Shown piece by piece: positions 7,240-46,980 of a stretch of DNA of 64,000 nucleotides (its first letter is position 1; each line of letters opens with the position of its first letter). The stretch spans positions 1-64,000 of the forward strand of contig CAJWEV010000001.1 in NCBI GenBank assembly GCA_913031575.1. Reading direction: 5' to 3'. Below the pieces are notes generated by a model. That model made no database searches. It had not been told where the DNA came from and saw only the letters and a list, made by a program, of their open reading frames with translations. The DNA comes from an uncultured Halieaceae bacterium (lineage in GTDB: Bacteria; Pseudomonadota; Gammaproteobacteria; Pseudomonadales; Halieaceae). A program made the position numbers and the translations under genes.

Positions 7240-8212
7240 AGCGCTGTGACAACAGTGAGAGGGTTTCACACCAGAGCTTTTTTGCGATGTCTGAATCCAC
7301 AGCCCACTGCCTAACGCCAGTGAAATCGTTACTATCATCCGGCACCACGTGGGAGATATTACAGTCTTCACAGTAGAGGCCACCCATGCCGTTCAATGAC
7401 AGCGCAGTGGCAGCCCACAGTGACGTGGCACAGCCTTGCGAAGGCGACTTGAAAAGCTTTGCTGCCACGGCGGATGGGTTCCCATCGGAGTCTGTCCATC
7501 CAAACTCGGCCATTTCGGCGTTGCCCAAATAGCGTTGTAGCGGGGTGAAGATGCCCCCTGGATGGACCGCAAAGCTGCGTAAGCCGTTACCTTGTTCTCG
7601 GCGGTCGAGCTCGACGGCCATCAATGACTGGGCCGATTTTGCTTGACCGTAGGCCTGCCACTTATCGTAGGGGCGCTCGTCATAATTCATGTCTGAGAAG
7701 TCGACGGCGCCCATCCGATGAGCGATGGACGACAGGGTGATCAGACGTGCACCATTGGCTGCGCGCAAGGGATTTATGATCTGTTGCAACAGAGCAAAAT
7801 GACCCACGTGATTGACGCCTAACTGCCACTCCAGGCCCTGCTGTGTGCGACCCAGTGGGCACGCCATTACACCTGCATTGAAGATGGCGAGATCGATGAC
7901 GGGGTAAGCACTCGATAAATCCTCCCCATACCGGGCCACCGTTGGTAAGTCCGAGAGGTCCATGAAACCAATATGTTCAGCCGGGATGATCCCATCTAGC
8001 GTCTTTATTGCACGACCAACGTCGCGTGAGGGAACGAGAACGGTTGCGCCTGCGTTGGTCAAAGCGCGAACAGTTTCGATGCCGATACCAGAATAGCCAC
8101 CCGTGACAACGGCAGTTTTACCCGAGAGGTCGATGTTCTCCATGACTTCAGTTGCCTCAGGCTTTCGGTCAATGCCGGTATCGATTGGAGTTTGTTGGGT
8201 GGAGATGCTCAT
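7238..8212 (-). CDS. Short-chain dehydrogenase/reductase (SDR, retinol-dehydrogenase-like)
   Basis: A 324-residue NAD(P)-dependent oxidoreductase. The Rossmann motif TGGYSGIG follows a 30-residue N-terminal extension. NAGVMA, the catalytic Ser in LSSIAH and the YGQAK motif (Tyr and Lys of YxxxK) are all present. The about 40 C-terminal residues after the substrate loop, with CEDCN, resemble the retinol dehydrogenase/WW-oxidoreductase-like branch. The substrate is unknown. It is divergent from the ABA4-like gene with a short shared promoter region of about 85 bp. Confidence 0.85.
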   Translation of the reverse strand: MSISTQQTPIDTGIDRKPEATEVMENIDLSGKTAVVTGGYSGIGIETVRALTNAGATVLVPSRDVGRAIKTLDGIIPAEHIGFMDLSDLPTVARYGEDLSSAYPVIDLAIFNAGVMACPLGRTQQGLEWQLGVNHVGHFALLQQIINPLRAANGARLITLSSIAHRMGAVDFSDMNYDERPYDKWQAYGQAKSAQSLMAVELDRREQGNGLRSFAVHPGGIFTPLQRYLGNAEMAEFGWTDSDGNPSAVAAKLFKSPSQGCATSLWAATALSLNGMGGLYCEDCNISHVVPDDSNDFTGVRQWAVDSDIAKKLWCETLSLLSQR

Positions 8213-8296
8213 GGACGGTATTTCCAGTATCGAGTGATCTGTTAGTGTGGCGTGGTCACAAGCAGATGGCTACTACGATATATAGGAATAAAAACA

Positions 8297-8737
8297 ATGG
8301 CCTTAGAAACGATATTCAGCTTATGCAGTGGGCTCGCTATGGTGGGCTGGTTGGGGCTCCTATTTTTGCCTAAGTCGCCCGTCGCTCGAGAGCTATTGCC
8401 GAGCGTCATCATTCCGGTTCTTTTGGGCGTAACCTACGCCTATCTGATGTTTTCTTTCCGGGGAGTGGCGCCAGCAGAGGGCGGCTTTGGCACGCTAGCG
8501 GAGGTCAAGGCACTCTTCAGTGTTGATGCTCTCTTGCTTGCAGGATGGATTCACTATTTGGCGTTCGATCTCTTCATTGGCGCATGGATCGTTAGAGACA
8601 GTCAGACTCACGACTTGCGCCATTGGCTTGTGATTCCGTGCCTGTTCTTCACCCTTATGACGGGCCCGCTCGGACTGCTCATCTATTTGCTACTGAAACG
8701 ACTCAGCGGTAAGCCGCTGAGCCCTAAAACAACCTAG
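8297..8737 (+). CDS. ABA4-like integral membrane protein (DUF4281)
   Basis: A 146-residue protein with about four transmembrane helices. It resembles the family of plant ABA4 (neoxanthin formation) and its bacterial relatives. Visible family features are the conserved stretch WIHYLAFDLFIGAWIVRD, with polar residues inside a helix, and MTGPLGLLIYLLLK at the C-terminus. I chose ATG 8297 because AGGAAT lies 8 bases upstream; an in-frame ATG at 8252 lacks a ribosome binding site. The bacterial function is not established; a role in carotenoid or membrane chemistry would be a guess from the plant homologue. Confidence 0.75.
   Translation: MALETIFSLCSGLAMVGWLGLLFLPKSPVARELLPSVIIPVLLGVTYAYLMFSFRGVAPAEGGFGTLAEVKALFSVDALLLAGWIHYLAFDLFIGAWIVRDSQTHDLRHWLVIPCLFFTLMTGPLGLLIYLLLKRLSGKPLSPKTT
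8702..8721. repeat. Perfect inverted repeat at the end of the ABA4-like gene
   Basis: CTCAGCGG and CCGCTGAG are separated by TAAG, giving a perfect 8-bp hairpin inside the last codons of the ABA4-like gene and just before the convergent isocitrate dehydrogenase gene. It may help end transcription between the two, but no T-run follows. Confidence 0.4.
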
Positions 8738-41043: not shown

Positions 41044-42126
41044 TTATATTGCTGCGGATTGATTGGCCCAGCCGGGAAGCTCACAAAATGTATCGGCTGC
41101 TACTTTGACGCTGACCGCCGAGTTGGCATGCGCACCAACGCACCATGATGGCATGACCATCGAATACACCCCCGAGCCGCCCGCCTGCAAAATCAAGATT
41201 TGTTCCGGTTCCTGGAATGCCATGCGGTCTTTAGGGTCGGGTCCTGAAAACTGGCTGAACAGACGCTTGACGATGCTCGCCTCGACAAAGCTTCGCTGGT
41301 ATAGCTCTTGGGCAATGTCCTCTCGTGTGAGTCCGGCCCCGTTTAAAATGGCACTGTGCTCTGGGTTCAATACGACGGTTGCACATCCGCCTGTCAGCGT
41401 GCCGTTGTTGCTGGGCGGGTTAGCTAAGCCCATGGCAAGGAGTTCCAGCAGCGATTTGTAGCTATCCGGGTCATCGCCGTCGCCGGCAAAGATAACTGAG
41501 TGTGGTGCCTCGGAGCCCAGAACCGTGACCACGCTATCGTCGGCATTGAACCCTCGGCTTACGTGCAGCGGTGTGAAAGGACTGGCCTCCTCATCTTCTG
41601 CTAAACAGAAGGTGAACTTTCCAGGATGACCCAGCAGCGCCATGTCGGAACTACCAGGTCGTGCCTTGCCAATATTGATCATGGTGAGCCGGAGTGCTCG
41701 ACCAATGGTCGCGTTCGCGCGGTGGCCAGGACCCAGGGCGCCCGTACCTGACGCAATCGGTCCGCAGGTGTGTCTCGCGGGTCCATTGACAATGATTAAG
41801 GGTGCCGTGCAGTGCGTCGTTGCCTGCATTTCAGTGAGATCGAACTGGGGATCGATCACCGCTTTAACTGCGGCCACCACCACCGGCATATAGTCGGGTA
41901 GACACCCCGCCATGACCGCTGCAATCGCTACTTTCTCGACGGTTGCGATGCCGTGCCCCGGTCCCATGGTGCCCAATATCATGTCCGCTTCGAGACCTGA
42001 TGCCAGAACCATGCGATTGACGCGCTCGGCTGTGGGGATGACGACGGGTAGGCCATCTGTGCAGCCGAGGCGATGGAGTTCTTCGAGTGCTGCCTCTTCG
42101 TCTCGCGCGGATAGGGTATTAGTCAC
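41044..42126 (-). CDS. Conserved protein encoded with a UGSC selenoprotein, function unknown
   Basis: A 360-residue, probably soluble protein with no signal peptide. The N-terminal LGCTDGLPVVIPTAERVNRMV and the core VMAGCLPDYMPVVVAAV, ALGPGHRANATIGRALRL and LGHPGKFTFCLAEDEEASPF look strongly conserved in style, and I recall similar proteins beside UGSC genes; no reaction is known to me. I chose GTG 42126, which overlaps the selenoprotein stop by 8 bases (GTGACTAA) and has GAGG upstream. A TTG at 42150 is an alternative. The overlap implies translational coupling, so the protein probably works with the selenoprotein. Several Cys (in GGCATV, SWCVGAH, TFCELPG) could be redox-active. Confidence 0.65.
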   Translation of the reverse strand: MTNTLSARDEEAALEELHRLGCTDGLPVVIPTAERVNRMVLASGLEADMILGTMGPGHGIATVEKVAIAAVMAGCLPDYMPVVVAAVKAVIDPQFDLTEMQATTHCTAPLIIVNGPARHTCGPIASGTGALGPGHRANATIGRALRLTMINIGKARPGSSDMALLGHPGKFTFCLAEDEEASPFTPLHVSRGFNADDSVVTVLGSEAPHSVIFAGDGDDPDSYKSLLELLAMGLANPPSNNGTLTGGCATVVLNPEHSAILNGAGLTREDIAQELYQRSFVEASIVKRLFSQFSGPDPKDRMAFQEPEQILILQAGGSGVYSMVMPSWCVGAHANSAVSVKVAADTFCELPGWANQSAAI

Positions 42127-42655
42127 TGCTTGCCTCGAGCGCGGCCACAATTTCTTGAGCTACTGAGTCCGCGACTGCGGTCATGTTTTCCGAGCCTGTC
42201 CCTGCTACCGGGTGAGGTAATTGAACTCTTGGCACATCTGACATGCCCAATGATTCAGCTACGAAATTGCCTTGAGCCCAGAACTCCTCAGTGACCAGTG
42301 CTACCGAGGGTATGCCAAGTTTGGCGAGGTTTATGCCGTCACGCACGGTGCCGGTAGTGCAGGAGCCTCAGTGCCCGTAGGCCGCGATAACACCCACGCA
42401 ATCTCCACCAATCTCACCGAGTAGTTTCTCGGGCGCGGCGATGGTGGCGTTGCCCTTGTTGTAGGCCTTGAGGTTGATGCCGGGCCGAAGCCGGCCAATG
42501 GCCTTACCAACCTCATCGAGGAAAGGCACAGAGTCAGGGAATCCGTTGGCAAGCAAGCCGATGGTAGTGGCGTTGCCACCGTCAACCTTTACGGACAAAT
42601 CGTACGGCGTATTTTCAATGCCGACGTCAGCGTCTGGGTTTAAAAACTCAATCAT
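42119..42655 (-). CDS. UGSC-family selenoprotein (in-frame UGA read as selenocysteine)
   Basis: The frame from ATG 42655 (AGAGGA 7 bases upstream) runs 95 codons to a TGA at 42370-42368. The same frame continues without interruption for 82 more codons to TAA at 42121-42119. Across the TGA it reads AAYGH-U-GSCTTGTVRDG, the UGSC motif that names this family; UGSC-containing selenoproteins were reported from marine metagenomes (established knowledge). The product would be 178 residues with Sec96 and Cys99 as a U-x-x-C redox pair. A short hairpin follows the UGA at the distance expected for a bacterial SECIS. Without selenocysteine machinery the product would stop at 95 residues. No sel genes lie in the window. 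Confidence 0.8.
42343..42360 (-). promoter_or_regulatory. Candidate bacterial SECIS hairpin after the UGA codon
   Basis: On the mRNA strand, GCAC at +8 to +11 after the UGA pairs with GUGC at +22 to +25 around a 10-base loop that contains GG at +16/+17. This is the spacing range known for SelB-recognised bacterial elements. The stem is only 4-5 bp, so the call is tentative. Confidence 0.3.
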
Positions 42656-42785
42656 GGGCTATCCTCTTTAACCGTCACTGTTATCGCCAAGAACCCGTGT
42701 GACTGTCAAGAGCGGCGTTAGGTAATGAGGTTCGCTGGCGTTGGTTTTGGCCAGTACAATAGAGGCTCGAGATGAAGGATGACCT

Positions 42786-43676
42786 ATGGAACGAATTGAA
42801 CTAGCACAGGGGCTTTCGTTTAGCCGGCTTGTTTACGGTATGTGGCGGCTGGCAGACGACAGCGATACGTCAGTGAAGCATGTCGACGCAAAAATTAATG
42901 CAGCGCTCGATCAGGGCATTACGACATTTGATCAGGCGGACATTTATGGTGGCTACGCCGCCGAAGCTGTCATGGGAGCGGCAATGAAGGCAAACCCTTC
43001 ACTGCGTCAGCGAATAGAAATTGTCTCCAAGTGCGACATTGTCATCGATGCAGGCCGCCACTCCGGAGCGCGTGTTAAACACTACAACACGACAGCAGCG
43101 CACATTAATGCAAGTGTCGATGCCTCTCTTTCGGAAATGGGCATTGACGACATTGATGTGCTTCTTGTTCATCGGCCAGACCCGCTCATGGATCATTATG
43201 AGACAGGTGCGGCGCTCGATGCGCTGGTAGATGCGGGAAAGAGCCGCGCGGTTGGAGTGTCGAACTTCAGACCCTGGGACTGGAGCTTGCTCCAGTCGGC
43301 CATGCGCCATCCGCTCGTCACCAATCAGATCGAATTGAGCCTTAAACATATTTCGCCTTTCACCAATGGTGATCTTGCCTTCCATCAGCAGCACGGACAC
43401 GTCGTCATGGCTTGGTCTCCCTTGGGTGGTGGCGATCTGATGACCGGTTCAAATGAGTTGACCCATCGCTTGGACAGCATTGCCAAACGATGTGGTGTCG
43501 ATCGGGCCGCGGTAGCTACGGCATTTTTATTAGCTCACCCTGCTAAGATCACGCCTGTTCTAGGTACCAACAACCTCGAGCGAATCTCGGCGATCTCAGC
43601 AGCTGAAACCGTCGAGATTGACCGGCAGGACTGGTTCTCTCTTTACGAAGCCGCGCTTGGAAGTGAGGTACCCTGA
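42786..43676 (+). CDS. Aldo/keto reductase (YdhF-like)
   Basis: A 296-residue NADPH-dependent (beta/alpha)8 oxidoreductase. The catalytic tetrad is visible as Asp and Tyr in DQADIYGGY, Lys in VSKCDI and His in LLVHRPDPL. GVSNFRPWD and the C-terminal TPVLGTNNLERI bind the cofactor. The arrangement is closest to E. coli YdhF-type reductases, whose physiological substrate is not clear. AAGGATG precedes the start. It is divergent from the selenoprotein gene with about 130 bp between the starts. Confidence 0.9.
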   Translation: MERIELAQGLSFSRLVYGMWRLADDSDTSVKHVDAKINAALDQGITTFDQADIYGGYAAEAVMGAAMKANPSLRQRIEIVSKCDIVIDAGRHSGARVKHYNTTAAHINASVDASLSEMGIDDIDVLLVHRPDPLMDHYETGAALDALVDAGKSRAVGVSNFRPWDWSLLQSAMRHPLVTNQIELSLKHISPFTNGDLAFHQQHGHVVMAWSPLGGGDLMTGSNELTHRLDSIAKRCGVDRAAVATAFLLAHPAKITPVLGTNNLERISAISAAETVEIDRQDWFSLYEAALGSEVP

Positions 43677-45419: not shown

Positions 45420-46769
45420 CTAGGCGCTGGCCGAGGGTGACTGCGTGGCACCCACAAGCTTGTACTCGCTGGCATCAGTAATGAAGTCGGCGTGTCCATA
45501 GGTTTCCAGTAAGCGACCCAGTTTTCGTGTGAGGCTTCTATCAAGCACCTTGGCAAGCCCTGGAATTTTCATGCCGAGGCTGCAGAGATTTGAGCTACCA
45601 ACAATGGTCGTTAGGGCACAGGCAGTAGCCACTTTATCGCTGAACCTGTAATGCACGCCCATTGCCTCGGCACGTGCCACTTTTCCCTCACAGAAGTTCT
45701 GGATCAGGAAGTACTTGGAGAACCCCCGTTCCATCCAGCGGTGGAAACGCCCCGTAATGCTAGGATCAGTAAATAACTCCGCGTCCATGGTTCCACGTAC
45801 TAACTCACCACAGGTTTCATCGTCATAAATCTTGTGAAGAGACATGTCTCTGGCCGTCATCAGATCGACTATTTCCTGAGGTGTTTCGCCCAGCAACTCC
45901 TCGGGTAATCCCAGCAGGAAACAGCGATATCGCGCCATCTCCACACGCGCACGTTCAGTTGGTGTGAAGTCGGTGCGCCCTTGCGCCAAAAGCTTGTAGG
46001 ACAAAAGAAAAATACCAATGAGTCCGGCCGGCATTTGGTCGACTTGCGGAATAGGAATTCCATAAGTTGATACGTCCCACTTACCTGTTCTCATGATGTT
46101 AAATCGCACCATCGAGTGCATCAGACGAACCTTCGCGGCGGCCTTGAATCCGGGATTGAAACGTTCCATCGCCCGCGGCATGGCTGTCGCAGTGAAAAAA
46201 CTCGCAGTTTCAAAGACGCGGCGGACGGATTGTTGATCGGTCAGTGTGCCCGTCATGGTCATGGGCAACGCGGTGTACTTATTCATGAAGGTAGCAATGA
46301 AAGCGCCGCGAATCGCAAAAGGCGAAATGGTCCCCAGCGGTATACGCTCGTGCTTGGCGCCTTCCTCTACCATGGCCATATCAACCCAGTCGGGTGTGGC
46401 CTCCATCGCTCTAATGAAAGTGATGAGTTCGTCAGGCGCGTTCTCGACGCTTTCGATACCCTCATCACAGGCTTTCTCAAGCATGGAGACTAAGGCTCTA
46501 AAACCATACTCAGGTATGAGTGACGCGTAGGCGTCGGCGACCTTGTCACCCATCATGGTGTAGTTACGGATGCGCTTGATGAGCGCTGGGTTTTCAAGGA
46601 CGCGCTCACAATAGTTGCGATGACGAGAAGGGCTAAGCGTCTCAAGATCAAAGTCCCTGACGTAGCGTTCGGGGAGTTGATTGAAATCAACTGATCCGTA
46701 AATCTCAGGGACAAGCGCCTGCTGCTCCAAAACAGATGAGTTAAACAGCTGCTGATGTTCTTGTTGCAT
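45420..46769 (-). CDS. MpaB-family oxygenase (DUF2236, heme-type)
   Basis: A 449-residue protein of the DUF2236 family, which includes the fungal mycophenolate oxygenase MpaB and rubber oxygenase Lcp. Visible family features are AIRGAFIATFMNKYTALPMTMTG (two segments), ATAMPRAMERFNPGF, the His-containing KVRLMHSMVRF and DFTPTERARVEMARY. A b-type heme ligated by His is expected from the family. The substrate is unknown but probably hydrophobic. I chose ATG 46769 because GGGG precedes it and the in-frame extension to 46841 is not protein-like. Confidence 0.8.
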   Translation of the reverse strand: MQQEHQQLFNSSVLEQQALVPEIYGSVDFNQLPERYVRDFDLETLSPSRHRNYCERVLENPALIKRIRNYTMMGDKVADAYASLIPEYGFRALVSMLEKACDEGIESVENAPDELITFIRAMEATPDWVDMAMVEEGAKHERIPLGTISPFAIRGAFIATFMNKYTALPMTMTGTLTDQQSVRRVFETASFFTATAMPRAMERFNPGFKAAAKVRLMHSMVRFNIMRTGKWDVSTYGIPIPQVDQMPAGLIGIFLLSYKLLAQGRTDFTPTERARVEMARYRCFLLGLPEELLGETPQEIVDLMTARDMSLHKIYDDETCGELVRGTMDAELFTDPSITGRFHRWMERGFSKYFLIQNFCEGKVARAEAMGVHYRFSDKVATACALTTIVGSSNLCSLGMKIPGLAKVLDRSLTRKLGRLLETYGHADFITDASEYKLVGATQSPSASA

Positions 46770-46980
46770 TGATCGTGCCCCAGTTGCTCTTTTCACACCA
46801 TAGCCAGTTACGACGGTGTAGGGCAACCGGACTGCTGCCAACGTGTTCGACTAAAAATGTAAATCGACCTAGTGACTTAATCCGTCGCTCTGATGAGCAA
46901 GGGGCTGGCGCCCCATCAGTCTTAACGCTACCTTGATGAGCTGGCGATATAAATCAGGAACTAAAAGAGATCGTGACCCC

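Follow-up and report, generated by a model that had tools for sequence, protein, structure and literature searches.

A UGSC-family selenoprotein gene with an in-frame UGA, an overlapping partner gene and a constrained RNA element: a probable two-part reductase

In this marine bacterium, a gene that a stop codon seems to divide very probably makes a single selenoprotein, and sequence comparison, not chemistry, places the locus in a known family of real selenoproteins, UGSC. The gene lies in the window, by which we mean the whole 64,000-nucleotide stretch of DNA analysed here. Our preferred explanation, which we consider probable, is that this protein and the product of the overlapping downstream gene form a two-part, thioredoxin-driven reductase that uses the logic of the D-proline and glycine reductases with a different substrate subunit, its selenocysteine (Sec96) being decoded through a SECIS element. 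The downstream gene, which the original prediction did not include, is the most informative part of the locus; together with it, the present analysis adds a corrected hairpin, a predicted fold and a link to thioredoxin. The features of the locus are as follows.

42119..42655, minus strand: UGSC-family selenoprotein gene, 178 aa, Sec96 in U-G-S-C, TAA stop, with a PF24696 match across the TGA
42368..42370, minus strand: in-frame TGA, read as Sec codon 96 from the frame and from Cys at the equivalent site in plasmid-borne homologues
42662..42667, minus strand: AGAGGA, recognised by eye as the ribosome-binding site for the ATG start at 42655
41044..42126, minus strand: partner gene, 360 aa, GTG start at 42126, sharing 8 bases with the 3' end of the selenoprotein gene
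42336..42354, minus strand: hairpin B, the proposed SECIS element, CCG G CAC [CGUGC] GUG A CGG, at +14 to +32 counted from the UGA

The selenoprotein frame runs from an ATG at 42655-42653 through the TGA at 42370-42368 (codon 96) to a TAA at 42121-42119, the coordinates originally predicted, and translation table 11 splits it into a 95-residue protein and a 75-residue ORF from an internal GTG, much as had been foreseen (95 and about 75 residues). The ribosome-binding site claimed before the start can likewise be seen, as AGAGGA at 42667-42662. Read through the TGA, the protein matches the Pfam UGSC profile (PF24696) at an E-value of 4e-39 over residues 22-174 (134.9 bits vs a gathering score of 25), an alignment that spans the TGA, whereas the separate halves match at 3e-6 and 7e-19, each in the corresponding half of the profile; the proposal of a single frame carrying U-G-S-C is borne out by this comparison. 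The U/C-x-x-C motif of the UGSC family is present, with Sec at the in-frame UGA. Against the NCBIfam equivalog for UGSC_fam (NF041046) the protein scores 106.6 bits, under the cut-off of 125, and it is therefore filed here under PF24696 and not as an equivalog.

Conservation of the TGA was followed in named genomes scanned with the downstream partner protein, the best 80 of 223 being kept. A UGSC gene lies directly upstream of the partner in 77 of these best 80, that is, in all those with room for it; two of the remaining three contain part of UGSC, and the last sequence starts 60 bases before the partner. All 77 readable relatives among the best 80 have the stop at the Sec position as TGA (76, and L097 besides), none has Cys there, and the frame is conserved on both sides of the TGA except in L097, where an additional TAA precedes the Sec codon, and L131, which has a frameshift further on. 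Three loci at contig ends (L087, L112, L122) are outside these counts, and L097 is dropped from later ones for its extra TAA. The family assignment and the Sec reading of the UGA in the original prediction thus both stand. Record titles place the TGA-keeping relatives in Pseudomonadota, Actinomycetota and Acidobacteriota. The next in-frame stop is also TGA in 68 of the 77 selenoprotein genes (L055-L134), so that the same codon mostly serves as Sec and as stop within one gene.

Plasmids supply the Cys forms. Records matching the partner (24) or UGSC (12) amount by our count to 25 distinct plasmid records, of which 13 were examined, and some plasmid UGSC genes, in Variovorax and Roseovarius, were missed by the UGSC search itself. 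Cysteine in place of Sec, the substitution that homologues had been expected to show, is found on plasmids of five other genera (Natrinema, Halorientalis, Arthrobacter, Variovorax and Neorhizobium), and an in-frame TGA is found in the plasmid UGSC genes of Acidovorax sp. T1 and Paracoccus versutus. No homologue read ends at residue 95, which the original prediction had raised as a possible end of the true protein. At least three switches between Sec and Cys are forced by well-supported branches of a 37-row tree in which several rows are long-branched. The Cys-form UGSC protein of an Arthrobacter plasmid (L168:6923-7738) has a NifU-like domain at its C-terminus (E 4e-6), and on a Sporomusa termitida plasmid (L173:6320-8041) a fused UGSC-partner protein has Met in the Sec/Cys place, so that a UGSC form without the redox residue exists. 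The predicted risk of mis-annotation is illustrated by a Paracoccus ferrooxidans plasmid (L200:2396-2965), whose gene table lists two short hypothetical proteins just upstream of the partner and looks like the same error; in the public gene table for the Acidovorax sp. T1 plasmid (L167:7935-8225), only a 97-residue hypothetical protein ending at the in-frame TGA is called.

A search for the selenocysteine machinery, as originally suggested, gave a divided result in the window's own assembly (2.14 Mb, 88 contigs, 79% complete): selA and selD score over their cut-offs, so part of the machinery is present in the genome, and neither selB nor tRNA-Sec does so in this incomplete assembly. The selA gene runs off the end of contig C48, and in the relatives G017 and G018 the same run of peptidase, symporter and selA, compared by eye, continues to selB and then tRNA-Sec; the two missing genes therefore probably lie just past the break. 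SelB is over its cut-off in 11 of the 38 genomes of the relatives search (own included) and a full UGSC gene is present in 10, one of them with two copies, each copy with one TGA. With G004 excluded, because a contig end truncates its UGSC match, 9 of the 37 genomes have both, one (the window's own) has only UGSC, two have only SelB and 25 have neither, an association with a Fisher p of 4e-6. Among 41 UGSC-carrying genomes, drawn from 42 chosen loci and including some already counted in the 38, SelB is over the cut-off in 38 (the exceptions being L083, L126 and L127) and tRNA-Sec in 34, once barely (49.8 vs 47 bits). An IMES-1 RNA motif (L051:9578-9705, minus strand) was noticed near selB and tRNA-Sec of one relative, at a contig end.

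Downstream of the UGA, the evidence for an RNA element is the conservation seen in sequence alignments, not folding energy. Among 42 dereplicated genes (<80% amino-acid identity), codons +6 to +10 are GGC, ACC, GTG, CGT and GAC in every gene that retains the commonest residue at the position concerned (a single codon in 42/42 at +6, +7, +8 and +10, and in 41/41 at +9), and codon +5 is ACC in 40 of 41. The mean z for codon constraint is -11.7 over codons +1 to +11 vs -1.1 over the 53 others, a few of which also reach -5 to -8 singly. Hairpin B sits at the most strongly constrained codons. Its pairs are C14-G32, C15-G31, G16-C30, C18-G28, A19-U27 and C20-G26, with a G17xA29 mismatch and the loop CGUGC, and it folds at -6.0 kcal/mol with a pair probability of about 0.47. 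In 78 sequences (76 loci, the window and L136), bases +16 to +24, +26 to +30 and +32 are invariant, and the sole variable pair of hairpin B is 15-31 (CG in 75, UA in 2, UG in 1), the two U15-A31 sequences being close kin and probably representing one event. Hairpin B explains this invariance because it pairs three third-codon bases with bases that the amino acids fix (C18 with G28, U27 with A19, C30 with G16); the loop bases C21 and G24 are invariant as well. Neatly, the third-codon bases left free in this hairpin are set by the codons of the protein itself.

The hairpin named in the original prediction, a GCAC/GUGC stem with GG in its loop at +16/+17, can form, and it may be an alternative fold, but the constraint pattern favours hairpin B, in which G16 and G17 are stem bases, and the earlier choice was probably the wrong one. 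The GCAC/GUGC hairpin ranks second in energy (-4.1 vs -6.0 kcal/mol), its pair 8-25 is broken in one of the 78 sequences, and it leaves +26 to +32 unexplained. Folding energy does not single out the window's element, with z-scores of +0.96 against dinucleotide shuffles and +0.36 against synonymous shuffles, and unusual stability was found in none of the five clade members tested. Conservation and pairing, not energy, thus indicate what is expected of a SECIS element: a hairpin closely following the UGA whose small apical loop contains a G. Sister subfamilies have ordinary strong hairpins, several with a GGUC loop, and 12 of the 15 tested score better than 288 or more of their 300 synonymous shuffles.

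Neither Pfam nor NCBIfam has a family that matches the partner. Across 369 genomes drawn from the whole class (own included), UGSC and partner occur in the same six, and the two are fused in one chain in G369 and on plasmids of Neorhizobium, Acidovorax and Sporomusa. G369 has at least 11 fused UGSC genes (L137, L141-L148, L181, L182), nine found by a profile scan that scored 9 of 24 candidates and two read separately, each with a TGA at the Sec position; some of their N-termini look by eye like signal peptides, which suggests that part of the UGSC family may be exported. In Haladaptatus no UGSC gene is annotated within about 3 kb of the partner gene, plasmid records matching the partner (24) outnumber those matching UGSC (12), and on a Halorientalis plasmid two partner paralogues (L171:5839-6831 and 7500-8501) flank one UGSC gene. 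The pairing, as read from gene order, is therefore regular and not absolute. The available part of the Global Ocean Sampling (GOS) paper mentions a UGSC/Unknown_1 fusion (PMC2398784), and Unknown_1 is probably the partner found here.

Gene neighbourhoods are consistent with thioredoxin as electron donor. Thioredoxin-system genes stand beside the UGSC-partner pair in four lineages: the gene rows are trxB-trxA-partner-UGSC in Arthrobacter and partner-UGSC-trxB in Roseovarius, a TrxB-like gene begins 2 bp after the fused gene of Neorhizobium, and another ends 15 bp before a fused gene of G369. In Variovorax trxB is two genes from the locus, and in the window's own clade no thioredoxin gene is adjacent to the pair. 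Over 112 partner loci, Roseovarius not counted and some places counted twice, a TrxB match occurs in 10, most of them non-adjacent, four lying 1.7-2.2 kb off on the other strand. The other neighbours in the window's clade are what we take, from sequences read by eye, to be SDR, crotonase, P450 and CoA enzymes; elsewhere they include tricarboxylate or TRAP transporters, CoA transferases, and PEP-mutase-like and phosphosulfolactate-synthase-like genes. No conserved neighbour names the substrate, the commonest gene after the partner occurring in 18 of 77 loci, and the neighbourhoods suggest organic-acid catabolism and no more than that. In the window, an aldo/keto reductase gene (42786-43676, plus strand) diverges 130 bp from the selenoprotein start, its cluster having a divergent member in 9 of 77 loci, and 45420-46841 (minus strand) encodes an mpaB/rubber-oxygenase catalytic family protein (E 4e-8).

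These data allow a mechanism to be proposed for the preferred two-part reductase, in which the reductase role, the electron donor and the catalytic steps are what we infer. The mRNA hairpin just after the UGA would let SelB insert Sec at residue 96, at the start of a helix in a protein of predicted flavodoxin-like fold with the motif Sec96-Gly-Ser-Cys99. The partner would bind and activate the substrate, Sec96 would attack the activated substrate, Cys99 would resolve the intermediate as a selenenylsulfide, and thioredoxin with thioredoxin reductase would restore the selenol. The scheme would be that of the D-proline and glycine reductases, with a substrate subunit unrelated to theirs by sequence.

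The predicted fold bears on an alternative that we regard as unlikely, yet as the strongest of those considered: that UGSC is a general thiol-redox or peroxide-detoxifying selenoprotein whose partner is a dedicated target or chaperone, no specific substrate being reduced. A U-x-x-C motif suits such general work, TrxB neighbours fit it too, and most selenoprotein families in the available part of the GOS paper are homologues of thiol oxidoreductases or have a Trx-like fold, which its authors also guessed for UGSC (PMC2398784). The AlphaFold2 model of UGSC (pLDDT 90), however, alternates five strands with five helices and places Sec where the helix following strand 3 begins; its top PDB structure matches are flavodoxin-like (flavodiiron proteins, azoreductases), with TM-scores below 0.5 by query length among the matches listed. 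The fold is thus predicted to be flavodoxin-like, and a thioredoxin-like topology was set aside on this model. Also counting against this alternative, the partner is twice as long as the UGSC protein and, in the row sets used, more conserved (columns average 73% identity over 29 rows vs 61% over 43), and the neighbours are often metabolic (CoA transferase, SDR, crotonase, tricarboxylate or TRAP transporters).

Less likely again is that catalysis belongs to the partner, as a lyase, hydratase or related enzyme whose substrate is an organic acid or a CoA-type compound, with UGSC only protecting it or regulating it by redox switching. A Foldseek search with the partner model (pLDDT 81) returns class I fumarase first and then cyclic amide hydrolases, and the neighbourhoods are metabolic, but the first match is poor (TM 0.23, rmsd 17) and none is trustworthy; sequence searches of the PDB with the UGSC and partner families gave nothing meaningful (best E 0.05). 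The Met of the Sporomusa fusion and the lone partner gene of Haladaptatus suggest that the partner may work without a redox residue there. In every other UGSC domain read, however, Sec or Cys is retained, and since more frequent loss would be expected of a site that served regulation alone, this retention counts against a regulatory role. Finally, that the TGA is a true stop, leaving two short proteins or a decayed gene, accords with the two pieces of the table 11 annotation and with the lack of selB and tRNA-Sec over cut-off in the incomplete assembly, but is hardly credible given the TGA at one codon in all readable relatives of the best 80, the frame conserved around it and the linkage with SelB.

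On the preferred explanation, UGSC and partner could represent a new class of substrate reductase that is two-part, selenium-dependent and driven by thioredoxin, a broader reading that we offer tentatively and as a single whole. The class would be widespread among marine Gammaproteobacteria that are probably aerobic, and would extend to Actinomycetota, Acidobacteriota, haloarchaea (in the Cys form) and Bacillota; it would combine the selenol chemistry of Stickland reductases with substrate activation by a previously unseen fold and mechanism, lacking a pyruvoyl subunit of the GrdE/PrdA type; and the fused copies, at least 11 in one genome, would serve several substrates. The organisms here are presumably aerobic, unlike those of the Stickland reductases, which counts against the preferred explanation.

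With 255 sequences, UGSC ranks fifth by number among the prokaryotic selenoprotein families of the GOS table (PMC2398784), and the functions of such families are described as largely uncharacterised in the available part of a 2026 review. We found no paper on UGSC function in the open-access literature, in line with the original prediction. With a partner, a fold, a candidate electron donor and named organisms carrying fused and Cys forms, an orphan selenoprotein becomes a system open to expression and assay; the Cys forms are of practical value, since no selenium machinery is needed to produce them.

Among known systems, the closest are the UGSC selenoproteins themselves (PF24696, NF041046 and the GOS survey, whose available part counts 255 Sec and 21 Cys forms; PMC2398784). 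The window protein shares their profile over most of its length, the U-G-S-C motif and the UGA site, and differs in scoring under the NF041046 cut-off and in a model that is flavodoxin-like and not thioredoxin-like. With thioredoxin-fold selenoproteins it has in common a U-x-x-C at the start of a helix, but in the UGSC model Sec follows the third strand of a five-stranded alpha/beta protein. For D-proline reductase, the parts of the literature available describe a PrdB selenol that attacks the substrate held by PrdA, a Cys then resolving the intermediate, and a glycine reductase fed by thioredoxin reductase and thioredoxin (PMC3091704). PrdB and GrdB (PF07355) resemble UGSC in having U-G-[TS]-C ahead of a helix and a GIP-type strand, and in the pairing of a selenoprotein with a second subunit. 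One profile comparison of UGSC with PrdB sets Sec on Sec with U-G-[ST]-C in register (hhalign E 1.3e-4, probability 54%); a second is weak (probability 3.5%), PrdB against the UGSC profile gives E 0.018, below cut-off, and PF07355 has no match to the window protein and is absent from the 11 families that 43 members match at E-values up to 10. GrdB itself has matches in 5 of the 369 genomes of the class, each to part of the profile only and three of them over cut-off. The partner differs from PrdA in being unrelated by sequence: the pyruvoyl-forming GrdE/PrdA family (PF09338) is not among the Pfam matches of 29 members, hhalign gives a probability of 0.1% against four PrdA, and with a pyruvoyl-forming Cys in mind we saw by eye no invariant cysteine across the translations compared. 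Because the PrdB alignment is mixed and the partner is not PrdA-like, membership of that family is unsupported, and what the comparison favours is a system that plausibly works like that of PrdB.
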